NCBI GenBank assembly: GCA_002348425.1
Contig: DEBE01000127.1
Span: 1-14,266, forward strand
Source of the DNA: Alphaproteobacteria bacterium UBA2964
GTDB taxonomy: Bacteria > Pseudomonadota > Alphaproteobacteria > MPNO01 > UBA2964
DNA length: 14,266 nucleotides
Direction: 5' to 3'
Shown here: piece after piece, positions 2 through 14,266 of the stretch
Layout of the letters: every line of letters starts with the position of its first letter
Numbering within the stretch: the stretch's first letter is position 1
Position numbers and translations under genes: made by a program
The notes under the pieces: generated by a model
Database searches by the model: none
What the model saw: only the letters and a program-made list of their open reading frames with translations
Told to the model about the DNA's origin: nothing

Positions 2-442
2 GGTGTTTTACTCGTACTTTGCGGTGTCCTATTTCAAACATGCAACACTATTATAGTTAAAAAACTCACAAAAACCGAGGAACCCGATGCCATAGTGTTA
101 TATCATACATTATTTATTTTACCTCTCTCAATCATTCCAACAATCTACGTATGGGAAACACCAACTTTGGAACAATGGGGTTGGTTCGCTATTATCGGCG
201 CCGCAGGGATCTTAACACAAAGTTGTATGACCAGGGCATTCGTCGTTGCAGACGCTTCATTTGTATTGGCCCTCAGCTATCTAAGATTGCCGATTGCAGC
301 GATTATGGGGTTTGCAATTTTTGGAGAGGTTCCTGTCATATGGGTATGGATTGGGGCTATTATCATATGCGCCTCCTCAACCTACATTGCTCACCGCGAG
401 TCAGTCCTCGCCCAGACCAATGGACGACGGAACAATGAATAA
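2..442 (+). CDS. EamA/DMT-family transporter, C-terminal part (cut by window start)
   Basis: The reading frame is open from base 2 with no stop before the TAA at 440-442, so about 146 C-terminal residues are visible and the N-terminal half lies outside. The protein is very hydrophobic, with several helices separated by short polar turns. Its last part ('LRLPIAAIMGF...GEVPVIWVWIGAIIICAS') is typical of the second EamA repeat of drug/metabolite transporters, which are inner-membrane carriers of about 300 residues and 10 helices that move small metabolites. It aligns by eye with the same part of the next gene ('TRLPLAALAGF...NEVPEVWVWIGSGVIACA'), so the two are tandem paralogs. The first internal ATG, at 95, is not the real start, because the homologous frame continues upstream. 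Substrate unknown. Family call is confident; the missing half means integrity cannot be judged. Confidence 0.85.
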   Translation, partial: GVLLVLCGVLFQTCNTIIVKKLTKTEEPDAIVLYHTLFILPLSIIPTIYVWETPTLEQWGWFAIIGAAGILTQSCMTRAFVVADASFVLALSYLRLPIAAIMGFAIFGEVPVIWVWIGAIIICASSTYIAHRESVLAQTNGRRNNE

Positions 443-1343
443 AATAGCAAAGCTCATTTCATTTTGGCCAGCGGTGATCCAATGCACCTTTTGGATCTTA
501 ATCTCCGGATCTTTGATGGTCATACAACTGGGTATCGTCAGATTGATCTCAAATGATATAGATGTATTTGAAATTGTTTTCTTTCGTGCTTTATTCAGCT
601 GCCTTTTTATTCTTCCAATAATTACAAGCAACCCAACTGTGCTGAAGGTAAACCGCCCCGTCATTATGGGACTATGCGGCGTCTTGGCATTTGTAGCCGG
701 AGTTTGTTTTTATTTCGCCGCAAAATATATGCCTCTCGCAGATATTACGGCAATCCATTTTTCTCGTCCTATTTTCGCAGCCATTCTTGCAGCTATCGTC
801 TTAAAAGAAGTCATAAAAGGGCCTAGAGCTATTGCAATTATTGGCGGCTTTATCGGCGCAGCAATCATAATACGCCCCGGGCTAGTCGATTTTAATGTTG
901 GTATTTTCTTTGTACTTGGTGTGGTTGTAGTGCAAACTTGGAACCCCATAAATCGGCGCCTATTATCTAAAAGTGAACACCCGGATAGCATCGCTGTTTG
1001 GACACAGCTGATAGTTTTGCCACTGGCATTGATACCAACTTTTTTGGTCTGGACAATGCCAACATGGGAACTTCTAGGTTGGATGGCATTAATTGGACTT
1101 CTGGAAATGCTAAACCAGCGAGTGTTGGCACGGGCCTACATACAAGGGGAAACTGTCATAGTTCTGGCTCTTCATTATACCAGACTTCCTTTGGCAGCTC
1201 TTGCCGGTTTTCTTATGTTTAATGAGGTTCCTGAAGTTTGGGTTTGGATCGGCAGTGGGGTAATTGCCTGTGCAGCTCTTTATCTTGCCCACCATGAGAA
1301 AATAAAAGAGGGTCAAGAGAAAAATAAGAACTCTGATATTTAA
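435..1343 (+). CDS. EamA/DMT-family transporter
   Basis: An inner-membrane carrier of the drug/metabolite transporter superfamily, 302 residues from the ATG at 435, the usual family length. About ten hydrophobic segments form two EamA repeats (roughly residues 10-140 and 150-290). The second repeat contains 'GWMALIG', 'TRLPLAALAGF' and 'NEVPEVWVWIG', matching the upstream gene. The start is ambiguous: ATG at 420 adds five residues (MDDGT) and the frame is open further upstream to 294, but the family normally begins with a short polar stretch before helix 1, so 420 or 435 fits. The ATG at 435 overlaps the end of the previous gene by 8 bp, implying translational coupling and perhaps joint function, even as a heteromeric pair. 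No substrate can be inferred. A 140-bp spacer without a clear terminator separates it from the next gene on the same strand. Confidence 0.9.
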   Translation: MNKIAKLISFWPAVIQCTFWILISGSLMVIQLGIVRLISNDIDVFEIVFFRALFSCLFILPIITSNPTVLKVNRPVIMGLCGVLAFVAGVCFYFAAKYMPLADITAIHFSRPIFAAILAAIVLKEVIKGPRAIAIIGGFIGAAIIIRPGLVDFNVGIFFVLGVVVVQTWNPINRRLLSKSEHPDSIAVWTQLIVLPLALIPTFLVWTMPTWELLGWMALIGLLEMLNQRVLARAYIQGETVIVLALHYTRLPLAALAGFLMFNEVPEVWVWIGSGVIACAALYLAHHEKIKEGQEKNKNSDI

Positions 1344-1483: not shown

Positions 1484-2473
1484 ATGACACCGCTTAGACT
1501 CAGCATCGCTTCTACTGATTACGATCATTTTCGTGACTTCCGAACAGGAGATGTGCGCGCCGAGGGGATAGACCACAATTGGTCCACGTTACGGCACCAC
1601 GAAGTATTTGCGCGTTTTACTGCGAATAGGGAATGGGATGTTGCAGAGTTAAGCTTTGCAAAGTTCGTCGCACAAGTAACTCGTGACAATGCTGATATCA
1701 TCGGTTTACCTGTGGTATGCTCCCGCTTATTTCGGTTTTCGTCTTTCTATATCAATAAAAATTCTGGCATCAAAACCGTCGAGGACCTCAAAGGAAAAAG
1801 GATTGGTTCACCCGAATGGGCCCATTCTGCCGCCGTGTATATGCGTGGCTGGATGCATAATGACTGTGGGGTAAAATTACATGATGTACACTGGTATCAG
1901 GCGGGCGCCAATGCGCCTGGTCGAGTGGAGAAGGTTGAACTCAATCTTCCTGAAGGGGTTGAGATTACGCGAATTTCAGACAAGTCTTTATCCGACCTAA
2001 TTGCCACTGGTGAAATCGATTGTGCAATAATAGCGAGGCCACCAACCTGTTTTCTTGAAGGGCACCCAGATGTAGTACGGCTTTATCCCGACTACCTTGA
2101 GATGGAGGAACAATATTATGAAAAAACCAAAGTCTGGCCAATAATGCACATCATGGTTATGCAAAACCATATTCTCGAGAACAATCCCTGGGTGGCACGA
2201 AACTTGTTGAACGCCTTCGACGAGTCCAAAGAACGTAGCATTGAAAGACTACTTGACCCGGCTGTATCCCGTTATCCTCTTGCGTGGCTTCCAACATATG
2301 CCCGAAAAATGCAAGCTACATTCGGGAAAGACCCCTACCCTTTCGGAATAGAGGAAAATCGGGCCACTTGGGAACAGATGCTACTCTATACATATCAGCA
2401 GGGCATCGCACACAAACACGTAACACCTGAGGATATATTTCCAAAAGGAATTATGACAAATGTAGTTGTTTAA
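1484..2473 (+). CDS. 4,5-dihydroxyphthalate decarboxylase (Pht5)-like / ABC substrate-binding-fold protein
   Basis: A 329-residue protein with the type-2 periplasmic-binding fold. It opens with a beta strand ('PLRLSIAST', residues 3-11), has the characteristic 'TVEDLKGKRIGSPE' loop near residues 98-111 that usually contacts the ligand, and a second lobe ending 'GIAHKHVTPEDIFPKG'. Length and motifs resemble Pht5-type 4,5-dihydroxyphthalate decarboxylases, which databases often label as NitT/TauT-like substrate-binding proteins. There is no signal peptide or lipobox: the N-terminus is polar and enters the fold directly, so the protein should stay in the cytosol. That favours an enzyme or a cytosolic ligand sensor over a transport receptor. 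A good ribosome site (GGAG, 1475-1478) lies 5 nt before the ATG. No ABC permease or ATPase adjoins it. It converges with the PrpD-like gene 31 bp away. Decarboxylase activity and substrate are inferences from family only. Confidence 0.75.
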   Translation: MTPLRLSIASTDYDHFRDFRTGDVRAEGIDHNWSTLRHHEVFARFTANREWDVAELSFAKFVAQVTRDNADIIGLPVVCSRLFRFSSFYINKNSGIKTVEDLKGKRIGSPEWAHSAAVYMRGWMHNDCGVKLHDVHWYQAGANAPGRVEKVELNLPEGVEITRISDKSLSDLIATGEIDCAIIARPPTCFLEGHPDVVRLYPDYLEMEEQYYEKTKVWPIMHIMVMQNHILENNPWVARNLLNAFDESKERSIERLLDPAVSRYPLAWLPTYARKMQATFGKDPYPFGIEENRATWEQMLLYTYQQGIAHKHVTPEDIFPKGIMTNVVV

Positions 2474-2504: not shown

Positions 2505-3875
2505 TCAAAGAATATCCATAAGCTTAATAAGCGGCCGCATATCGGATATATTTCCAAGCTCACACCACGCCGCCAAAACCGCATCACACCTTTGATTCCC
2601 AATAACGGGGGCACTTTGTGAACGAAATTTATTTTCTATATCTAAATCGGACATAGGATTGCCCGGGTGCCCAGGAGGATTGACGTTTTCAACCACATAA
2701 GTCGAGCCATCTTCCAATTCAACCACAGCCCGGACCATCATCGTATCAGGCATAAGTTCTTCGATAGCCGAATCCACAGTCACTTTTACTTTACTGAGGA
2801 GGGGACGAATTCCCGGATCACGGACTAAAGTTTCATCGAATGTGTTTACCGATACCGGACCATCAATTAGGGCCCTGACAAAAATATAAGGCAAGCTATG
2901 ATCAGCGGTCTCACGCGTTTGTGGATCCCATTTTTCTGGTTCACTAGCAATTTCATGTTTAGTAAAATTATCACAAAAAATTTCTATTTCTTTTATTGAC
3001 TCTATTTTATCTGGGGCAATCTTTTTCCGCATTTCGAGAGCTGCCCACACTACAGACTGTCCGTTGGTTTCTAAAGGCCAGTATTTGATAAGGACTTTTG
3101 GAAAATCAAAACTACCGCCTTCTGTAGGGAAGTTCGAAATCTCAAAAGGCCCCGTCACATTATCAAATAAACCACAACGACCTTCGAAGGCATTCCCTGG
3201 CCCAACCATACCTTCAGCCGCTAACGTCGCCGCAAAAACTCCATTTCGTCCTGCAAAGGCAGTCGCAACATTTTTCCATGGCGTCAGCTCACCGGATCTC
3301 GTAACACGTAACGGCACCGTAGAAGTCGCTGTCATTCCGATTGCGTGAGCTGTTTGTTCGCTAGAAAGTTTGAGCAGATTACAGATTCCTGCAGCAGTCG
3401 AAATTCCAACAGCAAATCCTTGGTCCCAACCCAGGTGGCGCATATTGGAAAATTCGCTAAGTCTGATGAATACTTCGTAAGTGACTAACACTGATGCCAA
3501 CAGTTGGCGGCCGCTTATAGGCATCGCTCCCGCCATAGCAAGATGCGGGCCAATTCCATCACTTGGATGCCCTCCCGGATAACGGTCATTAAAATCATAA
3601 TTACGAATCATACAGGTATTGATAAAGCCGGCAATTTCGACAGGTAGTACTTTTTCTTGCATAAGTGTGCGCCCCGGAAACCTGCCGGGCGTCTGCCCAA
3701 GAGCCAAACGCTTCCCTATTTCCGCGGCTTTGCAATCATGTGACCCTATAGCACAACCCAAAGTATCAATAAGGTGCTGACAGGCTAAATGAGAAATTTT
3801 AGTTCCAAGATGATCGAAAGTTAAATCGGTCGCAAAATTTGCAATTTGCCTGGTAAGCTGGTCGAACAAGATCAT
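2505..3875 (-). CDS. MmgE/PrpD family protein
   Basis: A 456-residue member of the MmgE/PrpD family, whose known members include 2-methylcitrate dehydratase (PrpD), cis-aconitate decarboxylase and iminodisuccinate epimerase. All act on small polycarboxylates in the cytosol. Visible hallmarks are 'YDFND' (93-97) followed by 'GGHPSDG' (101-107), the helical stretch 'NVATAFAGRNGVFAATLAAEG' starting near 202, 'KYWPLETNGQS' (264-274) and 'ADHSLPY' (324-330). Length is normal. The start is supported by an AAAGG ribosome site about 6 nt upstream. It is the last gene of a three-gene operon: only 8 bp separate it from the sulfotransferase-like gene. There is no prpB, prpC or acnD nearby, so a methylcitrate-cycle role is unlikely, and the partners point instead to catabolism of an unusual acid. 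Family assignment is firm; the reaction is unknown. Confidence 0.88.
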   Translation of the reverse strand: MILFDQLTRQIANFATDLTFDHLGTKISHLACQHLIDTLGCAIGSHDCKAAEIGKRLALGQTPGRFPGRTLMQEKVLPVEIAGFINTCMIRNYDFNDRYPGGHPSDGIGPHLAMAGAMPISGRQLLASVLVTYEVFIRLSEFSNMRHLGWDQGFAVGISTAAGICNLLKLSSEQTAHAIGMTATSTVPLRVTRSGELTPWKNVATAFAGRNGVFAATLAAEGMVGPGNAFEGRCGLFDNVTGPFEISNFPTEGGSFDFPKVLIKYWPLETNGQSVVWAALEMRKKIAPDKIESIKEIEIFCDNFTKHEIASEPEKWDPQTRETADHSLPYIFVRALIDGPVSVNTFDETLVRDPGIRPLLSKVKVTVDSAIEELMPDTMMVRAVVELEDGSTYVVENVNPPGHPGNPMSDLDIENKFRSQSAPVIGNQRCDAVLAAWCELGNISDMRPLIKLMDIL

Positions 3876-3883
3876 ATTTACCT

Positions 3884-5143
3884 TTATAAGACTGGAAAAT
3901 GTTCAGCTCGAAAGCTCGACAGTGGCAGAGGTGGATCTTCATTAATACCATCTATCCACATGTCAAAGACAATGTCTTTTTCTGGTGTTACCTCGAGTAA
4001 GCGCGCACGGCACATGTCTCCACGATTATCATTTGTGGCGACCCCATCAATTGTACAGATTCCGCCAAAGGTCATAAAGGTATTGCCGGTTTTCGGAAGA
4101 CGGTAGGCTCCACCCTGATAACAGGCATAAAATTGCTCCTCCGGACCAGCGCCGAACGACCACACTTGTTTTACTGTCATCATTTCCTCATCAACAAGGA
4201 ATTCAGCGACTCTACTGTAATTTTTTTCGGCCGGTAATTTTTCAGAAAAAGGCAATGCTCGGTGATTTCCATTATCAAAACATAGGATTGAACCAGAAGG
4301 TGTTACAGAGCAATCATGTTGATGGTATTGCCAGTCCAATTCTCCTAGAGGCTCCAGTAAATATTTTGACCATGGTCGTCGCCAGTTTCCAGGGTCGCCG
4401 AGAATCCATTTTATATCTCCGGTGAGACGAGAAAACTTAAGGATGCAGTCCTGGGTCCTAAGAGAAACCATTATTGTATCGTCACGCTGGTCATAAAAAA
4501 CAGCATTGGTATGACACCAGTCATTGCTATCCATAAAACCCAATTTATTCCAGTAATTAGAACAACTTCCATAGCAGAGCCGATATGGATCAATCATATC
4601 AAATAAATGCCATTTATCGATGATGTCCCCCTTTGCAGAAACCTCAAGGACAATGTCACCAATGACCTTGGCGGGACCTCGGGAAGCGTCAGGTTCACTA
4701 TCGTTTACCGGCCAGTCAGGAAAGACCCGCATTTCAGCACTTAGGAGCAAAAAGTTGCCATTGGGTAAAACATTCACTCGATGGTGAGTTAGAGGTATAT
4801 CTATTGCGATTGAACCGGGGGGCGGCTGCTTATCTTGCCACTTGCCAGTAACATGCCACTGTCGAATGAGCGTTCCAGTCGGTGATACCTCTATTATTTG
4901 ACCCGCAGCTGTCAGAGAAAAAATCAGATTACCGTTGGGGTGGGCACAACTATCTTGTGCTGCGGTATCAAATTGCAGATTTAACGGCATTTTCCCCTCT
5001 GCGTTGAGCCCAATAATCCATCCAACTTTATTGCGTCCTCTGTCATTGCCGCCGGGCCTTACGTTAAAAACCATCATCCCGGGTTCGCGTCTATCTGGTA
5101 TACAAGTATCGATATGATAAGGAGGCAAATCGGCAGTATTCAT
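3884..5143 (-). CDS. Arylsulfate-sulfotransferase-like beta-propeller protein (ASST family), no signal peptide
   Basis: Resembles PAPS-independent arylsulfate sulfotransferases, which move sulfate from a phenolic ester to another phenol through a sulfo-histidine in a six-bladed propeller. From the ATG at 5143 it is 419 residues; an in-frame TTG at 5152 would add three. Numbered from the TTG, motifs are 'HPNGN' (71-75), 'HHRVNVLPNGN' (123-133), 'DWCHTNAV' (211-218), 'SLRTQD' (230-235), 'TGDIKWILG' (244-252), 'QHD' (278-280) and 'CFDNGN' (291-296). H123/H124, H214, R232 and H279 fit the family's His-His-Arg-His site, and the 18-residue H214-R232 gap equals His356-Arg374 of the E. coli enzyme. 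Unlike that periplasmic enzyme it has no signal peptide or membrane anchor, so it should be cytosolic. The ATG starts 1 nt after the monooxygenase stop, consistent with reinitiation. A non-sulfotransferase propeller lyase or binding role remains possible. Confidence 0.8.
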   Translation of the reverse strand: MNTADLPPYHIDTCIPDRREPGMMVFNVRPGGNDRGRNKVGWIIGLNAEGKMPLNLQFDTAAQDSCAHPNGNLIFSLTAAGQIIEVSPTGTLIRQWHVTGKWQDKQPPPGSIAIDIPLTHHRVNVLPNGNFLLLSAEMRVFPDWPVNDSEPDASRGPAKVIGDIVLEVSAKGDIIDKWHLFDMIDPYRLCYGSCSNYWNKLGFMDSNDWCHTNAVFYDQRDDTIMVSLRTQDCILKFSRLTGDIKWILGDPGNWRRPWSKYLLEPLGELDWQYHQHDCSVTPSGSILCFDNGNHRALPFSEKLPAEKNYSRVAEFLVDEEMMTVKQVWSFGAGPEEQFYACYQGGAYRLPKTGNTFMTFGGICTIDGVATNDNRGDMCRARLLEVTPEKDIVFDMWIDGINEDPPLPLSSFRAEHFPVL

Positions 5144-5144
5144 A

Positions 5145-6482
5145 TTAATCAAACCGTCTAGTTGGCCATGCTGGACGCGACAGGCCTAAGTTTTGCCTTA
5201 GGGTCGTTCCGTTATATGCTTTACGATAAAGACCTCTCCGCTGTAATTCTGGGATAACAAGATCTATGAAATCTCTTAAACTAGATGGAAACAACGGGGG
5301 CATAATATTAAATCCATCGCATGCTCCGTCAACAAACCACTCTTCCATCAAATCGGCAACTTCACTCGTCGATCCAATGATTTCATAATGACCGCGAGCA
5401 CCAGCAACCCTTCTATAGAGTTCTTTGATTGTTAAATTTTCTCGGCGCGCAATATCAACAAATAGATCTACACGGGTAGAACTCGTTTTGTTACGTGGAA
5501 TTTCCGGCAAGGGGCTATCAATCGGAAAACCTGAAACATCGTAATCAAGCCGTTTGGAAAGAAGTTGCAATCCGGTAATTGGATCGATCAAGTCTTGAAG
5601 GTAGTCATACTTACGAACTGCTTCTTCGCGAGTTTCTGCAACGCACACCAATAATCCCGGCATTACCTTAAGATCATCAGGACTGCGACCATATCCATAC
5701 ATACGTTTCTTTACATCAGTGTAAAAATCTTTGGCTCCCAAAATCGTTTGTTGTGCGCCAAAAATTACTTCTGCGGTCTCAGCCGCAAGTTCCCGACCTT
5801 CATCAGAAGCTCCCGCCTGCACCATAACAGGTTCTCCTTGGGGTGATGGCGGAACGTTCAAAGGTCCCTTAATTTTGAAAAACTCACCATCATGTTCAAG
5901 AATTTGAAGCTTTTTCTTGTCAAAATAAACACCAGATGCTCGATCCCTGATAAAGACGTCCTCCCCCCAGCTATTCCATAAGCCCCGGACAACGTGTGCA
6001 AACTCTTTTGCTCTTTTATAACGCTGTGATTTTTCCATATGCTGTTCTTTACCAAAACTTGCCGCTTCAGACCTATTCCCCGAAGTAACCAAGTTCCAGC
6101 CAGCACGGCCACCGCTTACGAGATCCAATGAAGCAAATCTCCTTGCCAGGGAAAAGGGTTGATCATAGGTTGTTGTTGCTGTGCAAACTACACCAAGTTG
6201 TTTGGTATGTTGGGCTATCGCACCCATAAGGGTAAAGGGTTCGATCCATGTACCATAGGAATCGTGAGCCATCGCATCCAGTTCGCCTCTCCAGAAAGAG
6301 ACCGAATCTGCCATAAAGAACATATCAAAAAGGCCGCGCTCAGCCATTTGAGCAATATCAATAATATGGTTCATGTTTGATCCGGAATTTGGAACACTAT
6401 CAGGATGTCTCCAAGCGGCAATATGGTGGCCACATGGCCAATAAAACATGCCGAGCTTCATTTCCTTTTTACTGCCAACCAT
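5145..6482 (-). CDS. NtaA/SnaA/DszA-type FMN-dependent monooxygenase (LLM class)
   Basis: A 445-residue luciferase-like flavin monooxygenase of the nitrilotriacetate/pristinamycin/dibenzothiophene-sulfone subgroup. These enzymes use FMNH2 supplied by a separate reductase to oxidise C-N, C-S or similar bonds. Diagnostic parts are 'LGMFYWPCGHHIAAWRHP' (10-27), 'FMADS' (56-60), 'EPFTLMGAIAQHTKQLG' (81-97), 'SGGRAGWNLVTS' (123-134, the flavin-phosphate region) and 'VMVQAGASDEGRELAA' in the C-terminal half. Length is typical. The ATG at 6482 has a GGGAG ribosome site about 10 nt upstream; the ATG at 6461 (MKLGMFY) is where many relatives begin and is a real alternative. It is the first gene of the three-gene operon and starts only 42 bp after the polA stop, with no evident terminator between, so read-through from polA is possible. 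No flavin reductase is present in the window. Substrate unknown. Confidence 0.9.
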   Translation of the reverse strand: MVGSKKEMKLGMFYWPCGHHIAAWRHPDSVPNSGSNMNHIIDIAQMAERGLFDMFFMADSVSFWRGELDAMAHDSYGTWIEPFTLMGAIAQHTKQLGVVCTATTTYDQPFSLARRFASLDLVSGGRAGWNLVTSGNRSEAASFGKEQHMEKSQRYKRAKEFAHVVRGLWNSWGEDVFIRDRASGVYFDKKKLQILEHDGEFFKIKGPLNVPPSPQGEPVMVQAGASDEGRELAAETAEVIFGAQQTILGAKDFYTDVKKRMYGYGRSPDDLKVMPGLLVCVAETREEAVRKYDYLQDLIDPITGLQLLSKRLDYDVSGFPIDSPLPEIPRNKTSSTRVDLFVDIARRENLTIKELYRRVAGARGHYEIIGSTSEVADLMEEWFVDGACDGFNIMPPLFPSSLRDFIDLVIPELQRRGLYRKAYNGTTLRQNLGLSRPAWPTRRFD

Positions 6483-6524
6483 GCGCTAGCTTCTCCCGAG
6501 TTTTACATCATCCCGCGGGTATTT

Positions 6525-9329
6525 TTAATGTGCCTCGTCCCAGCTCAAACCATAACCGGTATCACAGATTAAGGGGACAGATAGGCTTGCCGCAGACTCC
6601 ATGACGTCTTTGACCAGTTTCTCGGTCTTCTCAAGCTCACTTCTTGGCACTTCAAATATTAATTCATCATGAACCTGCAACAACATTTGTGCTTTGAGAT
6701 TCGCGGACTTCAAAACATCGGGCATCAGGATCATTGCACGTTTAATGATATCAGCAGCCGACCCCTGTAACGGGGCATTGATTGCCGCACGTTCCATAAA
6801 ATTTCGTCGCGCCGGATTTTTATCCTTAATTCCCGGCACGTGAACTCGACGGCCAAAAATTGTTTCAACATATCCATTCTTTTGCGCGAACTCTTTTGCG
6901 TTATCCATGTAGCCCTTAACACCGGGATATCGTGCAAAATAAGCCTCGATAAAGGACTTTGCATCGCCTTGCGCAATGTCCAGCTGACGCGCTAATCCAA
7001 ATGGGCTGATACCATAAATAATGCCGAAATTTATCGCTTTAGCACGATTACGAGTCGGGCTATCGAGTTGGCTGATAGGAATTTCAAATACCTCACTAGC
7101 TGTCAGGGCATGAATATCAACACCATCTTTAAAGGCCTTCTTAAGGGTACCAATATCAGCCACATGTGCAAGCAAGCGCAACTCAATTTGAGAATAATCT
7201 GCTGAAAGCAGAACATTTTTATCATCTGCAACAAAGGCTGTTCTAATTTTACGACCATCTTCAGTGCGTATGGGAATGTTCTGCAGGTTAGGATCATTAG
7301 AAGACAAACGCCCAGTCGAGGCTATCGCTTGCGCAAAGGAGGTATGCACCCGTCCGGTTCGACTATCAATCTGACCTATTAATGCATCCGTATAGGTACT
7401 TTTAAGTTTGCTTAACTGGCGCCATTCAAGGACTTTCTTGGGTAATTCATGACCCTGGGCCGCAAGGCCTTCGAGAATATTTGCACCGGTAGCATAGGCC
7501 CCTGTCTTCCCCTTTTTACCACCAGGCAAGCCCATTTCATCAAACAAAACCTCGCCCAACTGTTTAGGCGAACCAATATTGAAAGAACGCTCAGCTAATC
7601 TGTGGACTTCTTCTCCGAGCAACGCAATACGTTTTTCGAAATCAGCAGACAAACTTTTCAAAACTTTGATGTCGACCCTAATACCCGCTCTCTCCATAGC
7701 CTCGAGTACACTTATAAGGGGCCTCTCTATTCGCTCATAAACCGTCGCCATATGCTCTGACACTAGACGAGGTTTAAGAAGTTGATACAAACGAAGTGTC
7801 ACATCTGCATCTTCTGCGGCATAGTCTAGAGCAGCTTCGAGTTCTACCTCCGCAAACCCTATTTGTTTTTTCCCGGAACCGGTTACTTCTTTATATTTAA
7901 TATTGGTTCGGCCAAGATGAATCCGTGTAAGTTCATCTAGTCCGTGGCCATGCGAGCCACCATCGAGTACATACGATAACAACATCGTATCATCTAATGG
8001 CCCCATCCTAACATTATAGTTTGCAAAAACCTCGCTATCATATTTTGCGTTATGCGCAACCTTCAACGTACCGGGATCCTCCAACAATGGTTTAATAATC
8101 TCCAATAATTTATCGATAGTAAGTTGTTTTGGGGCATCTTTAGTTTGAGAGAGCGGATTCTCTTCTCCTAGATCGAGTGTTGCTTGGCTGACCCGACGGA
8201 TATGCCCCACAGGAATATAACAGGCCCGTGCACCCTCAACCGGTTTTGGAAGGGCTAGAGAAATACCAATGAGTTCTGCATTTAACGAATCAAGGGAGTT
8301 CGTTTCCGTATCGACTGCAACGATACCTTGCTCATAAGCTGCTTTCACCCACGTTTTTAAGGGAATCTCTTCTTGAATTAAAGTGTAGCCCCCATCATCA
8401 CCAGCTGGAGCGTCCTGCATTACATTGTTAGTAACAGAAACATCCTGACCAGCGGCTCCAAGACGAGCCACAACCTTCGCTACCGTTGATTTAAACCCTT
8501 GTTCTTCAAGAAATCCCAATAACTTCTCAGGTTCCGGTTCCCTAATAACAAAATCCTCATATTTTTGTTTGACGGGCACGTCTTGCTTGAGGGTGACAAG
8601 ATCCCTTGAAACACGGGCTTGCTCGGCATACTCGATGAGGCTCTCACGTCGTTTTGGCTGTTTGATCTCATTAGCCCTAGATAACAATGTATCAAGGTCG
8701 CCGAATTCATCAATCAACTGTGCCGCGGTTTTTACCCCAACACCCGGTACGCCAGGCACATTGTCAGTTGAATCACCGGCGAGCGCTTGAACGTCAATAA
8801 CCTTTTCAGGTCTTACACCAAATTTTTTCTTTACCTCCTCATAGCTAATTGCCGTTCCCTTCATCGGGTCTTGCATTGAAATATTCTCGTCAACGAGCTG
8901 CATTAAATCCTTGTCGGAGGAGACAATGGTTACCTTATGTCCATTGGCGCCGGCCTCTTTTGCATATGTAGCAATTAGATCATCGGCCTCGTACCCTTCC
9001 ATTTCTGCTTGAGGCAGGCCAAATGCTTCTACGGAAGCACGAATTAACGCAAATTGTGGTATCAAATCTTCAGGTGGAGGCGGCCTATTTGCTTTATAAT
9101 CTGGATAAATCTCAGACCGAAATGTCCGCCTGGCTGTATCAAAAATTACTGCAAGGTAGTCCGCGTCCGAATCCTCCACCAGCTTTGTAAGCATGGAAGT
9201 AAAGCCGTAGACCGCATTTACCGGTGTCCCGTCAGGCCGGTTCATAGGTGGCAGAGCATGATAGGCGCGAAAAATATAACCAGATCCATCTATAAGCAAT
9301 AAATGTTTGGCCTTTTTATTTTCTGCCAT
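6525..9329 (-). CDS. polA: DNA polymerase I
   Basis: A 934-residue, full-length family-A polymerase for Okazaki-fragment maturation and repair synthesis. The N-terminal 5'-3' flap nuclease spans about 8-290 ('LLLIDGSGYIFRAYHALPP', 'DADYLAVIFD', 'GYEADDLIATYA', 'GVPGVGVKTAAQL'). The central 3'-5' proofreading domain has all catalytic residues: D340/E342 ('VDTETN'), N427/D431 ('HNAKYD') and Y503/D507 ('YAAEDAD'), so it should be active, unlike Thermus or Bacillus enzymes. The polymerase domain carries motif A with D711 ('SADYSQIELRL'), motif B ('RNRAKAINFGIIYG') and motif C with D888/E889 ('QVHDELIF'). The ATG at 9329 has a strong CGGGGA ribosome site 5-6 nt upstream. The zinc-finger gene lies 99 bp upstream on the same strand. 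Nothing is unusual in the protein. Confidence 0.98.
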   Translation of the reverse strand: MAENKKAKHLLLIDGSGYIFRAYHALPPMNRPDGTPVNAVYGFTSMLTKLVEDSDADYLAVIFDTARRTFRSEIYPDYKANRPPPPEDLIPQFALIRASVEAFGLPQAEMEGYEADDLIATYAKEAGANGHKVTIVSSDKDLMQLVDENISMQDPMKGTAISYEEVKKKFGVRPEKVIDVQALAGDSTDNVPGVPGVGVKTAAQLIDEFGDLDTLLSRANEIKQPKRRESLIEYAEQARVSRDLVTLKQDVPVKQKYEDFVIREPEPEKLLGFLEEQGFKSTVAKVVARLGAAGQDVSVTNNVMQDAPAGDDGGYTLIQEEIPLKTWVKAAYEQGIVAVDTETNSLDSLNAELIGISLALPKPVEGARACYIPVGHIRRVSQATLDLGEENPLSQTKDAPKQLTIDKLLEIIKPLLEDPGTLKVAHNAKYDSEVFANYNVRMGPLDDTMLLSYVLDGGSHGHGLDELTRIHLGRTNIKYKEVTGSGKKQIGFAEVELEAALDYAAEDADVTLRLYQLLKPRLVSEHMATVYERIERPLISVLEAMERAGIRVDIKVLKSLSADFEKRIALLGEEVHRLAERSFNIGSPKQLGEVLFDEMGLPGGKKGKTGAYATGANILEGLAAQGHELPKKVLEWRQLSKLKSTYTDALIGQIDSRTGRVHTSFAQAIASTGRLSSNDPNLQNIPIRTEDGRKIRTAFVADDKNVLLSADYSQIELRLLAHVADIGTLKKAFKDGVDIHALTASEVFEIPISQLDSPTRNRAKAINFGIIYGISPFGLARQLDIAQGDAKSFIEAYFARYPGVKGYMDNAKEFAQKNGYVETIFGRRVHVPGIKDKNPARRNFMERAAINAPLQGSAADIIKRAMILMPDVLKSANLKAQMLLQVHDELIFEVPRSELEKTEKLVKDVMESAASLSVPLICDTGYGLSWDEAH

Positions 9330-10953: not shown

Positions 10954-11030
<77 letters not shown>

Positions 11031-11098
11031 CTTTTCTTTCAACAAGTTCAGATAGTTACCAGTTCGTGATTTCAGTCTGACCTCACAGAAGAGTGGCG

Positions 11099-11126
11099 GT
11101 CAGTTTCCTCATACGGAAATTCTGAC
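11099..11126. other. Stem-loop in the non-coding region
   Basis: GTCAG-TTTCC (11099-11108), a 6-nt loop, GGAAA (11115-11119), a two-base bulge, then CTGAC (11122-11126). Ten base pairs in total, more than expected by chance for a short loop. Confidence 0.5.
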
Positions 11127-11260
11127 AGAGAATATTCGGAATGTGTAGAGAGAATGGGGTGTAGATGATCCAGACCCCGTTACCCCGAAGAATTAGACCC
11201 ACTCGACAAAACACCTCATTACCTTTTTTTTGAGTATTAAAAAGGTTCTTACGCAAACAA

Positions 11261-11299
11261 GAAAAGACCCTGCAACTTAGGGGCAAACAGGGTCTTTTC
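11261..11299. terminator. Twelve-bp perfect hairpin, terminator-like on both strands
   Basis: GAAAAGACCCTG (11261-11272) is the exact reverse complement of CAGGGTCTTTTC (11288-11299), with a 15-nt loop. The A/T-rich base and GC core give the usual form of a bidirectional terminator. On the - strand the stem continues into TTGTTT, and on the + strand the stem's own TTTT would be the tail. On the + strand it could end a transcript starting at the tRNA or just after it. Confidence 0.55.
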
Positions 11300-11467
11300 C
11301 GTCTATCAATCTGCCAAAGAGGTCACGCTTAGAGCAGACCGAGATCACGATATGTTTATCGCCTTGCATAAGGGCTTTGTTCACCTAGTTCCCAAAGGTG
11401 AGAGGGTTAATTTTAAGCATGCAGCATGAGGCTTTGTTTTTCGAAATAAGCTTGTGTGCACTACCAC

Positions 11468-11492
11468 GGGCCGCGTTTACCCTCCGCGGCCC
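11468..11492. other. GC-only 8-bp stem-loop
   Basis: GGGCCGCG (11468-11475) pairs with CGCGGCCC (11485-11492) around a 9-nt loop. It is followed by GCGGTTTACCCC, which echoes GCGTTTACCCTC from the first half. The stem is strikingly GC-rich for this AT-rich surrounding and would be very stable in RNA. Confidence 0.5.
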
Positions 11493-11596
11493 GCGGTTTA
11501 CCCCATATCATGCAAACCTTTAGGAACTTAGACGTCGCCCCTATTTGTGAGGTAAGCGAAAATATTTAAATTTTATAATATAATTTCGATTTCCTA

Positions 11597-11625
11597 TTGC
11601 GACTAATTATCAGTTGCACTATATA
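11597..11625 (+). promoter_or_regulatory. Sigma-70-like promoter of the 188-aa gene / ahpC unit
   Basis: TTGCGA at 11597-11602 and TATATA at 11620-11625 are separated by 17 nt, the ideal spacing. The expected start of transcription, around 11632, falls inside the Fur-like palindrome and about 30 nt before the start codon of the first gene. Confidence 0.5.
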
Positions 11626-11644
11626 AATGAGATTGATTCTCATT
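11626..11644 (+). promoter_or_regulatory. Fur-box-like operator
   Basis: AATGAGATTGATTCTCATT is a 19-bp near-perfect palindrome (8 of 9 pairs, centre G at 11635). Its core TGAGATT-G-ATTCTCA follows the 7-1-7 layout of the classical Fur site TGATAAT-N-ATTATCA, with three or four differences. It directly abuts the -10 element and covers the likely transcription start, the place where bound Fur blocks RNA polymerase. Fur, Mur or Irr homologues with similar sites are possible. Regulation by iron is an inference. Confidence 0.55.
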
Positions 11645-11662
11645 CTCAACAGGGAATATAAC

Positions 11663-12229
11663 ATGGAACAAAAAATTATAAAGTTTGAAAACAGAGATAG
11701 AACTGCGGCTCAACGATCCTACAAAAAGACGTATCACCTCCAATTGGAAGGATTAAATTCTGCTGAGAATTTTTTAGTTTGGATGACTCAATATTGGGTT
11801 CGTTCAACGATACAGCGGATTGATCCACTACCATTAATTCGGAAAAGTATAGAGGAAATTTTGGATAAAGAGAATCAGGAGGAATATGTCCAATATATTA
11901 ATTATATATTTTACCTTTTTTTCAATATCTCGAGTTACCCTCTTACCCTGGGATGTCAACATTGTAAAAAACTAGGCTCTTTTGAGCTTAATTTTATGGC
12001 TTTGGTAAGTTTCCAGCAAAATGATGATGATCACCTAACCAAAAATTTATTGGGTCATATATTGGGTATTAATTATTCGGAGGATACAAAAAATTACATT
12101 GATTTGATTTCCGAAATTTATCTTAAAAGTAACCTAAAACTTCAACTTCGGCCAGAATACCAGGACCTATTTCAATTAAAGTCCCCCTCTATGGACCATT
12201 CCCTGAAATATTTAGGAAGTATTAATTAG
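11663..12229 (+). CDS. Unrecognised 188-residue protein with a CxxC motif
   Basis: I do not recognise this family. The frame is open from the ATG at 11627, but that codon lies within the operator and start-site region. The ATG at 11663 has an AGGGA ribosome site about 7 nt upstream and is preferred. The protein looks largely helical, with no signal peptide. It has a basic, polar N-terminus (RDRTAAQRSYKKTY), a tryptophan-rich helix (36-46), an aromatic hydrophobic stretch (76-90, 'YVQYINYIFYLFFNI') and one CQHC pair at 98-101 that could bind metal or act as a redox pair. It is the first gene of a unit with ahpC, 34 bp downstream, behind a Fur-like operator, so a role in iron or peroxide response is plausible by context only. 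It is AT-rich, like its right-hand neighbours. Confidence 0.75.
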   Translation: MEQKIIKFENRDRTAAQRSYKKTYHLQLEGLNSAENFLVWMTQYWVRSTIQRIDPLPLIRKSIEEILDKENQEEYVQYINYIFYLFFNISSYPLTLGCQHCKKLGSFELNFMALVSFQQNDDDHLTKNLLGHILGINYSEDTKNYIDLISEIYLKSNLKLQLRPEYQDLFQLKSPSMDHSLKYLGSIN

Positions 12230-12263
12230 TTAGATAATTTTCAAAAAAGAAAGTGTACAAATA

Positions 12264-12821
12264 ATGATAAATCAATCCATTCCCTCTTTTGTTGCTACGG
12301 CCTATCACCAAAACAAATTCGAAGAAATTTCTGACGAGACCATAAAGGGAAGTTGGGCCATTTTTCTATTTTACCCGAGGGATTTCACCTTTATTTGCCC
12401 CACGGAACTTCAAGACATGAGCAAATACTACGACGAATTTAAGAAATTGGGCGTCGAAATCTGCGCGGTTTCTACTGATAGCCATCACGTGCACAAAGCT
12501 TGGCACGACAATAGTGAAGCCGTCGGCAAAACAAAGTTTCCTATGATAGGCGATCCAACCGGAGCGATAACCCGTGGTTTTCAAGTCATGATTGAGGAGT
12601 CTGGAGAGGCCCATAGAGCAACTTTTCTTGTCGACCCCGAAGGGCTTATAAAAGTTGTCGAAATACATGCAGATAATATTGGTCGAAGTGCTAAAGATTT
12701 TTTAAGGAAAGTAAAGGCAGCTCAATATGTTGCAAATAGCGATGGGGAGGTGTGTCCCGCCGCTTGGGAGCCGGGAAACAAAACATTGAAACCTGGAATA
12801 GATTTAGTTGGCAAAATATAG
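12264..12821 (+). CDS. ahpC: Alkyl hydroperoxide reductase subunit C (typical 2-Cys peroxiredoxin)
   Basis: Reduces hydrogen peroxide, organic peroxides and peroxynitrite in the cytosol. At 185 residues it aligns by eye almost end to end with E. coli AhpC (187). It has the peroxidatic cysteine C45 in 'FYPRDFTFICPTEL', the supporting arginine R118 in 'HRATFLVDPEG', and the resolving cysteine C164 in 'GEVCPAAWEPG', ending in the family's 'DLVGKI'. The 'GDPTGAITR' stretch (97-104) is also typical. No ahpF or ahpD is present, so the reductant (AhpF, thioredoxin or other) must come from elsewhere. The ribosome site is weak (GAAAG about 12 nt before the ATG), so translation may partly depend on the upstream gene 34 bp away, with which it probably shares the Fur-like promoter. 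Confidence 0.95.
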   Translation: MINQSIPSFVATAYHQNKFEEISDETIKGSWAIFLFYPRDFTFICPTELQDMSKYYDEFKKLGVEICAVSTDSHHVHKAWHDNSEAVGKTKFPMIGDPTGAITRGFQVMIEESGEAHRATFLVDPEGLIKVVEIHADNIGRSAKDFLRKVKAAQYVANSDGEVCPAAWEPGNKTLKPGIDLVGKI

Positions 12822-12881
12822 CGTTTCAGACACTTTTTTAATTTTTGAGAAAATGTCGGCAAGTACCCAAACCTTCCTGAT

Positions 12882-12965
12882 ATGAAGCGCGCTAAGATAG
12901 TAATATTTTTGCTTATTTATTTACTTTGTTTCTTAATAATTTGGTATTTTTTATACTTCAATTGA
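12882..12965 (+). CDS. Possible 27-residue single-span membrane peptide
   Basis: A short frame encodes a basic start (MKRAK) followed by about 20 hydrophobic and aromatic residues (IVIFLLIYLLCFLIIWYFLYF) and a final N. This is the composition of a small inner-membrane protein with the N-terminus inside. It ends 12 bp before the next gene. There is no clear ribosome site, and AT-rich sequence easily gives such frames, so it may not be translated. Confidence 0.35.
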   Translation: MKRAKIVIFLLIYLLCFLIIWYFLYFN

Positions 12966-12977
12966 TCCCATAAAACC

Positions 12978-13262
12978 ATGTCCAAATCATCAAGCTATCA
13001 ACACTTAAGAGAATACCAAAAACAAGGCCCCAAAGTGCAAAATAATGCTGGTGGAGAAAAACAATTTTGGAAAGTCATAGCTATTAAGAAAGACCCTAGA
13101 AATTTCTGGATTCCAACAGAAGATTGCCCTTATTTAGATAATCGTTATCCTCTCGAAAGGGTTCGCTATGCGGTCGAACAAGGAAATTTAATTGTAGCTC
13201 AAAAAAAACTTGGCCCATTTCATTATGAATTATGGGCGACAGAACCTAAAATAAAGGTTTAA
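12978..13262 (+). CDS. Hypothetical protein, 94 residues
   Basis: I do not recognise this protein. It is soluble and basic, with no signal peptide or membrane segment. The first 28 residues are polar and probably disordered. The rest (about 29-90) looks like a small alpha/beta domain: 'QFWKVIAIKK', 'NFWIPTEDCPYLDNRYPLERVRYAVEQGNLIVAQKKLG' and 'HYELWATEP'. The strand-helix-strand pattern with conserved-looking W, P and Y residues, and codon use like its neighbours, support a real gene. The ATG lacks a clear ribosome site. It follows the putative membrane peptide by 12 bp and is followed by a possible terminator, so the two could form a unit separate from ahpC. Confidence 0.65.
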   Translation: MSKSSSYQHLREYQKQGPKVQNNAGGEKQFWKVIAIKKDPRNFWIPTEDCPYLDNRYPLERVRYAVEQGNLIVAQKKLGPFHYELWATEPKIKV

Positions 13263-13287
13263 ACAGATTACAATTTTTAGTCCTCCT

Positions 13288-13310
13288 AAACTCTAAGTTT
13301 TTTATTTTTT
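13288..13310 (+). terminator. Weak Rho-independent terminator
   Basis: AAACT (13288-13292), a 3-nt loop, AGTTT (13296-13300), then a T-rich tail through 13310 (TTTATTTTTT). The stem is short and AT-rich, and an alternative TTTAG/CTAAA pairing overlaps it, so termination may be inefficient. Confidence 0.4.
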
Positions 13311-13409
13311 GATCCGATAACAATCCTTTACCGTATTATGGTTTTGCTGCCAAATGTGGCATAACATTTTATGATATTGAAACTTCTAGAATATTTTTCA
13401 GTAAAGTTC

Positions 13410-14045
13410 ATGAAAACTAAACAAACAAAAACTCGATGGTGGTGGATAAGACATGCACCTGTTATTAACCCTGACAAAAAACTATATGGTCAGCTCGATC
13501 TAGACGTTGACCTTAGTGACCATCAAAAATTTGAATTAGTCGCCAACTCCCTGCCAAAAAATGCGACGTGGATAAGTTCACCTTTAGCACGAGCAAAAGA
13601 AACCGCCAGTCTTCTGGCCAACCTAACAAGCCAAGATAGTAAAATTAAGGAATATGATCAATTAAAAGAGCAAGCCTTTGGAGATTGGGAAGGAAAAAGA
13701 TGGGATGAAATTGACGAGAACATAAGCAAAACTTTTTGGGAAAACCCCGTAAAAAATTGCATCCCAAATGGTGAAAGCTTTAACGATTTGGTGAGACGTG
13801 TCTCAAAAACTATTGAGGAGCTAAACAATCAATATACTGGAAAGGACATCATTGCCGTCGCACACATGGGAACAATCAGAGCGGCGCTTACGCAGGCAAT
13901 CGGAGGGGACGGCCATGCTGGCCTGTTATTCCAACTAAAACCTATTTCCTTAACTCGTATTGATGCAATTCATGATAATAATCATATTTGGTGGAAAATT
14001 TCTGGTGTTAACCTTTATGGGAACAGAGATGAATTGGCGAGTTAA
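13410..14045 (+). CDS. Histidine phosphatase family protein (CobC/PhoE-like)
   Basis: A cytosolic phosphatase of the phosphoglycerate-mutase-like superfamily, which works through a phospho-histidine. From the ATG at 13410 it has 211 residues, with R14/H15 in 'WWWIRHAPV' (the phosphorylated histidine), R61 in 'SSPLARAKETA', E87 in 'LKEQAFGDWEG' and H152 in 'VAHMGTIRAAL'. The full catalytic set is present. 'LYGQLDLDVDLSD' (25-37) and 'FGDWEGKRWDEI' are typical of the alpha-ribazole-phosphatase (CobC)/PhoE branch. No cobalamin genes are nearby, so the substrate is open. An in-frame ATG at 13371 would add 13 residues; the later one is preferred because family members start just before the RHAP motif. 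A small hairpin (TGCCA/TGGCA, 13348-13361) lies just upstream. Confidence 0.88.
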   Translation: MKTKQTKTRWWWIRHAPVINPDKKLYGQLDLDVDLSDHQKFELVANSLPKNATWISSPLARAKETASLLANLTSQDSKIKEYDQLKEQAFGDWEGKRWDEIDENISKTFWENPVKNCIPNGESFNDLVRRVSKTIEELNNQYTGKDIIAVAHMGTIRAALTQAIGGDGHAGLLFQLKPISLTRIDAIHDNNHIWWKISGVNLYGNRDELAS

Positions 14046-14055
14046 CCCAAATATT

Positions 14056-14099
14056 AAAGCGATAAATCGATTATTAAAAATGGCATTGAAAGCGATAAA
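14056..14099. repeat. Two direct copies of AAAGCGATAAA, 33 bp apart
   Basis: Exact 11-base copies at 14056-14066 and 14089-14099, in the short gap before the DUF2177 gene. Their start-to-start distance of 33 bp is close to three helical turns, as for paired protein-binding sites. Could also be chance in AT-rich sequence. Confidence 0.4.
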
Positions 14100-14122
14100 G
14101 AAAAATTGATGGAACAAAATAC

Positions 14123-14266
14123 ATGATATTTGCAAAAGCCTATGTTGTAACCCTTATTGTGTTTCTATGCCTTGATTTTATATGGCTGGGATTTATCGCA
14201 AAGGATTTTTATGGTTCACAGTTAGACAATTTTATGCGTGTAAATATCAATTATGCCGCTGCTATA
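14123..14266 (+). CDS. DUF2177 family membrane protein, N-terminal part (cut by window end)
   Basis: The first 48 residues of a membrane protein that runs off the window. A hydrophobic first helix (residues 3-20) is followed by 'CLDFIWLGFIAKDFYGSQL' and 'NINYAAAI', which fit the start of DUF2177 proteins (helix 1 with a D-x-I-W-L-G motif, then a D-F-Y loop). These are small inner-membrane proteins of about 130 residues with four helices and no known function. The ATG at 14123 has a modest GGA ribosome site about 9 nt upstream. It is 77 bp after the phosphatase gene on the same strand. Confidence 0.75.
   Translation, partial: MIFAKAYVVTLIVFLCLDFIWLGFIAKDFYGSQLDNFMRVNINYAAAI

Follow-up and report, generated by a model that had tools for sequence, protein, structure and literature searches.

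A modular locus pairing an aryl-sulfotransferase-fold protein with an MmgE/PrpD-family protein in an alphaproteobacterial genus, with a flavin monooxygenase as an accessory member

Introduction

The assembly of Alphaproteobacteria bacterium UBA2964 (GCA_002348425.1, contig DEBE01000127.1) carries on its minus strand three genes in tight series, encoding an FMN-dependent NtaA/DmoA-family monooxygenase (LLM), an aryl-sulfotransferase-fold protein (ASST) and an MmgE/PrpD-family protein (PrpD), separated by 1 bp (LLM-ASST) and 8 bp (ASST-PrpD). The whole stretch of 14,266 nucleotides that was analyzed is referred to here as the window. Among relatives of the organism the structure of this locus is modular and the presence of LLM is patchy. 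We read it as a locus of peripheral catabolism, with ASST-PrpD as the core, a convergent Pht5-like gene and EamA-family transporters as the usual company, and LLM as an accessory occupying a slot between polA and ASST; we consider the prospects of this reading to be evenly balanced. A preliminary description of the window, made from its sequence alone, had proposed a three-gene catabolic operon. The coordinates agree with its three genes, single strand and two spacings, and the tight arrangement, the catabolic flavor and the genus-wide linkage of ASST, PrpD, Pht5-like and EamA genes all speak for that proposal; what is not supported is LLM as an obligatory member, given that it is found in two of eight readable loci. 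The features concerned are as follows.

3884-5143, minus strand: ASST, aryl-sulfotransferase-fold protein, 419 amino acids (PF05935); core member
2505-3875, minus strand: MmgE/PrpD-family protein, 456 amino acids (PF03972 and PF19305); core member
5145-6482, minus strand: LLM, FMN-dependent NtaA/DmoA-family monooxygenase, 445 amino acids (PF00296, TIGR03860); accessory member
1484-2473, plus strand: Pht5-like (4,5-dihydroxyphthalate decarboxylase-like) gene, by similarity to 9jp7; usual neighbor, convergent with PrpD
435-1343, plus strand: EamA-family transporter 2 (PF00892, found on a longer open reading frame from 294; ATG at 435)
2-442, plus strand: EamA-family transporter 1 (PF00892), truncated by the window edge
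6525-9329, minus strand: polA (DNA polymerase I), whose orthologues precede ASST in relatives and which borders the variable polA-ASST slot

A Conserved Core and a Variable Slot

Within the order, 27 genomes were searched and the ASST subfamily was recovered at E <= 1e-30 in 16 of them, including eight of the nine genomes of the window's own genus (G001-G006, G008, G009); it was not found in G007, whose assembly of 1.4 Mb has a stated completeness of 71%. Together with the window and a contig of TMED123 (L035), the eight genomes supply ten genus-level loci, in which the open reading frames (ORFs) of relatives were predicted with a simple script and grouped by single linkage, some members of the clusters being tested against Pfam. 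PrpD comes next after ASST in all ten, the PrpD of G009 being divided over two contig ends, and because this adjacency recurs in every genus genome in which ASST was found, the pairing is more than chance. The convergent Pht5-like gene accompanies the pair in 9/10 loci (the exception is G004, where the best match anywhere is 46%), and at least one EamA gene is present in all ten, the G008 and G009 contigs or stretches stopping before a full pair would be visible. With G001 excepted, identity to the window across these loci has fallen as far as 61-77% (PrpD) and 73-82% (ASST). The genus is probably marine, as suggested by record and source names (e.g., "tara").

The gene content between polA and ASST is far less constant. 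Eight slots can be read, those of G001 and G002 being left unscored as their contigs end within ASST. LLM directly precedes ASST in two, the window and RS382 (L031, LLM 81% identical), and is absent from the other six (G003, G004, G005, G006, G009, and L035); a fixed LLM-ASST-PrpD trio is consequently not favored. The preliminary description held that absence of the trio from every other genome would refute it, an outcome that is narrowly avoided: one other genome among those searched, RS382, possesses the trio. Elsewhere the slot holds a tetratricopeptide repeat (TPR) protein (L032), LysR, NmrA, and glyoxalase genes (L033 and, by ORF cluster, L036), or a PEP-CTERM gene alongside an O-antigen-ligase-like one (L037), and in L034 and L035 polA adjoins ASST directly. 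An ASST tree of 12 rows joins L031 and L035 as sisters (100/99) and does not make the window a sister of L031. In both L031 and L035 polA is followed by a similar short leader, with LLM in L031 only. A tree of 36 of the 120 LLM relatives (P0121-P0149 and seven more), in which the Rhizobiales sequence L054 forms a very long branch, places the LLMs of the window and RS382 together and apart from that of G011, a genome of another genus in the same family (support 89). As the LLMs group while their neighboring ASSTs are not sisters, LLM may be ancestral and often lost, or may have arrived more than once.

Several side observations belong to these loci. Just upstream of the ASST start, L032, L033, and L037, all without LLM, share a similar stretch, GCTGTGATA(A/T)CCTGTG, which is possibly a regulatory site. 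The TMED123 contig (NHFY01000041.1) is labeled Flavobacteriales and carries an alphaproteobacterial locus that groups with the genus in the ASST tree; it is probably mis-binned. The Pht5-like gene of G003 (L033:14047-15033) is split by an in-frame stop and the polA of G005 (L032) reads in two frames, each attributable either to sequencing error or to decay.

The Encoded Proteins

The family names given in the preliminary description hold for all three proteins by Pfam, and for LLM also by the NCBIfam model TIGR03860. Further per-family models and profiles were built from 50 (ASST), 25 (PrpD), and 23 (LLM) of the 120 relatives listed for each.

ASST matches PF05935 (Arylsulfotrans) at 204.4 bits against a cut-off of 24.2, with no model for it in NCBIfam, and shows the AssT/Cpz4 propeller fold across most of its length. 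Its closest known counterparts among aryl sulfotransferases independent of 3'-phosphoadenosine 5'-phosphosulfate (PAPS) are AssT of E. coli (3elq/3ets) and Cpz4 of Streptomyces (9kf4). By alignment, the catalytic His436 of AssT and its His356, Asn358, and Arg374, as given in a 2026 review (PMC13426309), are matched by H276, H211, N213, and R229 of ASST, and these four are invariant across a 51-row ASST alignment. ASST differs from AssT in several respects. It is 419 amino acids long and its structural alignment to 3ets begins at AssT residue 102, so that roughly the first hundred residues of AssT have no counterpart; it carries Q at the position of AssT T501; and it has no signal peptide visible in its sequence, and is apparently cytoplasmic. 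Unlike AssT and Cpz4, it sits with a PrpD gene. No dsb gene was recognized beside ASST in the window.

Both Pfam domains (PF03972 and PF19305) and the fold place the PrpD-family protein in the MmgE/PrpD superfamily. It was rejected as a 2-methylcitrate dehydratase, its scores lying under each of the NCBIfam equivalog cut-offs listed (122.7 vs. 950, 91.7 vs. 575, and 74 vs. 458). Identity to cis-aconitate decarboxylase, MmgE, PrpD, and iminodisuccinate epimerase is 20-24%, and H159 and T97 of cis-aconitate decarboxylase, whose numbering and roles we presume, align with W150 and R98.

LLM scores 547.4 bits against the TIGR03860 subfamily hidden Markov model, far above the cut-off of 279.7, and also matches PF00296. 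The solved chains nearest to it by profile are 7e36_B (444 bits) and MoxC/YtnJ (431), followed by 3sdo (398), a protein named as a nitrilotriacetate (NTA) monooxygenase, and DszA (372). The label "DszA/NtaA-type" in the preliminary description is thus apt at the level of the family and fails at that of the nearest relative, and an assignment of LLM to DszA or NtaA in the strict sense is not favored. CmoJ, which we take to be YtnJ, and YxeK are relatives that cleave C-S bonds. Among the 120 LLM relatives listed, the Joint Genome Institute (JGI) name N-acetyl-S-(2-succino)cysteine monooxygenase appears on two (P0164, P0211), and "nitrilotriacetate monooxygenase family" is the commoner name; no acetyltransferase or deacetylase was recognized beside LLM in the window. 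The LLM orthologue in G011 is 81% identical, and no ASST match was found in that genome.

The Pht5-Like Gene and Its Surroundings

As the preliminary description had it, a convergent Pht5-like gene (1484-2473+) and a pair of EamA genes (2-442+, 435-1343+) lie beside the three genes. Sequence similarity to 9jp7, a "dihydroxyphthalate decarboxylase," spans residues 1-320 of 329 (204 bits) and suggests a decarboxylase of that kind. The same description saw in the set a potentially complete locus of a new type, which the data do not establish. Each genus genome has between 4 and 20 matches to the Pht5-like family, and orthologues of 79-88% identity occur in six genomes that do not belong to the genus (G011, G013, G015, G018, G020, G023), on stretches of 6 to 14 kb without an ASST, PrpD, or LLM match at E <= 1e-5. 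G018 has its ASST on another contig, and the G020 orthologue (L164, G020:C131) neighbors genes for a zinc alcohol dehydrogenase, CobW, a class II aldolase, shikimate dehydrogenase, and a hydantoinase. Since close orthologues sit apart from the other families, the view that the Pht5-like gene demonstrates a sulfate pathway was rejected.

In five of the ten loci (G002, G003, G005, G006, and G009; loci L101, L032, L033, L036, and L141; Pfam-tested in two), the Pht5-like gene directly adjoins one for a glutathione transferase. LLM is missing from the slot in four of these, the slot of G002 being unreadable, and neither LLM-bearing locus (window, RS382) has the transferase in this position. A link to thioether salvage by way of the CmoJ/YxeK relatives is no more than speculation.

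ASST Beyond the Genus and the Enzyme Content of the Lineage

A scan of named genomes returned 54 ASST loci, eight from the genus and near kin (L031-L037, L065) and 46 from outside. Against the latter the PrpD profile found none at E <= 1e-5, on flanks that vary in length and are sometimes short. The LLM profile matched four of the 46: L054 strongly and at full length (its LLM was a row of the training alignment, which biases the score upward), L047 partially, and L042 and L055 weakly, these last two being left out of the partner count. In L054 (Rhizobiales, L054:9863-15927), an LLM of 52% identity runs in the same direction as ASST and two TctC-like genes, a separate meeting of ASST and LLM. 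By ORF cluster, TctC-like genes occur in 13 of the 54 loci, TctA-like genes in seven, and sulfatase-family genes in three, all outside the genus; of the members tested against Pfam (four TctC-like, one TctA-like, one sulfatase), one TctC-like protein had no match.

The genus genomes are themselves well stocked with such enzymes, having 1 to 12 LLM and 1 to 8 sulfatase-family matches each. Seven of the nine contain a second, distant LLM/PrpD pair arranged tail to tail (G001:C14, G002:C115, G003:C1:2106898-2109571, G004:C9, G005:C1, G008:C46, and G009:C15), with 45-47% and 20-23% identity to the LLM and PrpD of the window, respectively; the two families do, accordingly, meet elsewhere. An HpaB-family gene lies near this pair, Pfam-confirmed in G003, and its ORF cluster has members in four more of the loci. 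In G012 and G013, of another genus, a PrpD relative (55-56%) lies less than 2 kb from an LLM, without ASST.

A probably marine lineage with many LLM-type paralogues has a likeness in the flavin-monooxygenase expansions of SAR202, which belong to Chloroflexi, whereas this genus is alphaproteobacterial. In two papers, the SAR202 paralogues are proposed to act on resistant dissolved organic matter (PMC6946804, PMC5395668). Neither paper contains the words sulfotransferase, PrpD, or MmgE; "arylsulf" appears four times in PMC6946804, as arylsulfatase at the occurrences viewed.

Gene Calls and Flanks

The ASST start was set at the ATG at 5143, where the ORF list opens at a TTG at 5152, because the latter overlaps LLM, the ATG fits the family start, and the 96%-identical P0001 is likewise 419 amino acids long. 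A gap of 31 bp separates the end of the Pht5-like gene from the stop of PrpD on the opposite strand. The gene co-directional with LLM and 42 bp upstream of it, unmentioned in the preliminary description, is taken to be polA from its sequence rather than from a family search; the interval between them (6483-6524) holds no terminator-like site in the site listing. Across the window, Rfam at gathering thresholds found a tRNA alone and no regulatory RNA, and counts of promoter-like (17 observed, 14.7 expected) and terminator-like sites (11 observed, 8.3 expected) are uninformative. Beyond the tRNA-Arg gene (10954-11030) the G+C fraction falls to roughly 0.37-0.40, and a tblastn comparison with eight proteins encoded beyond polA in relatives gave no match in the window. 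The region 10954-14266 may represent a genomic island or a join made in assembly.

Discussion

In the modular catabolic locus that we propose, an EamA protein would move a substrate or product across the membrane. ASST, given its fold and residues, might accept on His276 the sulfuryl group of a phenolic sulfate ester and transfer that group to an acceptor, with release of the phenol. A carboxylated intermediate could then be dehydrated, isomerized, or decarboxylated by the PrpD-family protein and decarboxylated by the Pht5-like enzyme, in keeping with the folds and families of both. Where present, LLM would cleave a C-S or C-N bond with FMNH2, as its family suggests, and so widen the range of the locus. 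The uptake genes (TctC-like, TctA-like) or sulfatase genes near some of the ASSTs outside the genus count to some extent in favor.

A number of points weigh against this proposal. The failure of the PrpD profile to match any of the 46 outside loci suggests that the ASST-PrpD pairing may reflect lineage history rather than shared chemistry, and 36 or more of the 46 lack a sulfatase-cluster ORF and give no hint of sulfate esters. The genus already has sulfatases, so ASST is not needed for splitting such esters. The active site can be matched to that of AssT only in part: Thr501 aligns with Gln343, and His252 falls outside the printed alignment, H120/H121 being candidates for its counterpart. Finally, since ASST also closely follows polA in L034 and L035, tight spacing need not imply a dedicated operon.

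Such an operon is nevertheless one alternative, in which LLM, ASST, and PrpD would act together on one sulfur- or sulfate-bearing compound and would be ancestral to the genus and repeatedly lost. The 1-bp gap between LLM and ASST speaks for it, as do the co-directional LLM and ASST of L054 after their TctC-like genes, the second LLM/PrpD pair, and the PrpD-LLM proximity in G012 and G013. That LLM occupies the same slot in two loci that are not sisters by ASST, with LLMs that group apart from that of G011, makes ancestral presence with losses possible. However, three-quarters of the readable slots lack LLM, including that of L035, the sister of RS382, and G011 keeps a close LLM orthologue with no ASST match found. 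We regard a dedicated operon as unlikely.

We are similarly doubtful of a second alternative, that ASST runs in reverse, using an aryl sulfate inside the cell as donor to sulfate a toxic phenolic intermediate, which the EamA pair would then export. Cpz4, which sulfates a natural product, offers a comparison, its known role being in antibiotic biosynthesis, according to the review (PMC13426309). Against it, no biosynthetic genes were recognized beside ASST among those tested, and the neighboring families are common in catabolism. Least probable is that unrelated genes have simply gathered downstream of polA and are read through from it with no shared pathway: slot contents that differ between species, the lack of a listed terminator-like site before LLM, and the large Pht5-like and LLM paralogue families, which make a nearby copy unsurprising, are all consistent with it, but the constancy of ASST-PrpD (10/10) and of the Pht5-like gene (9/10) persists despite considerable divergence of both core proteins.

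The literature search returned nothing on this gene set by title, and nothing joining arylsulfotransferase with PrpD and monooxygenase, or with Rhodospirillales and marine; as most subscription journals lie outside its coverage, this is weak evidence that the ASST-PrpD pairing is undescribed. The component families are all known. What would be new is cytoplasmic, PAPS-independent sulfuryl transfer paired with a PrpD-family enzyme inside marine bacterial catabolism, a proposition that we advance tentatively and think improbable on present evidence. The 2026 review describes the physiological role of bacterial aryl sulfotransferases as poorly understood and their natural substrates as unidentified (PMC13426309).

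The locus also illustrates how a tight three-gene string can be misread as a pathway if relatives are not consulted, one of the three genes here being optional. A genus that keeps ASST beside PrpD, and nearly always beside a Pht5-like gene, provides a concrete setting in which to seek a role for aryl sulfotransferases. The importance of the finding is modest, and would be greater were ASST shown to act in catabolism, in which case these enzymes would gain a physiological role in the breakdown of sulfated aromatic dissolved organic matter.
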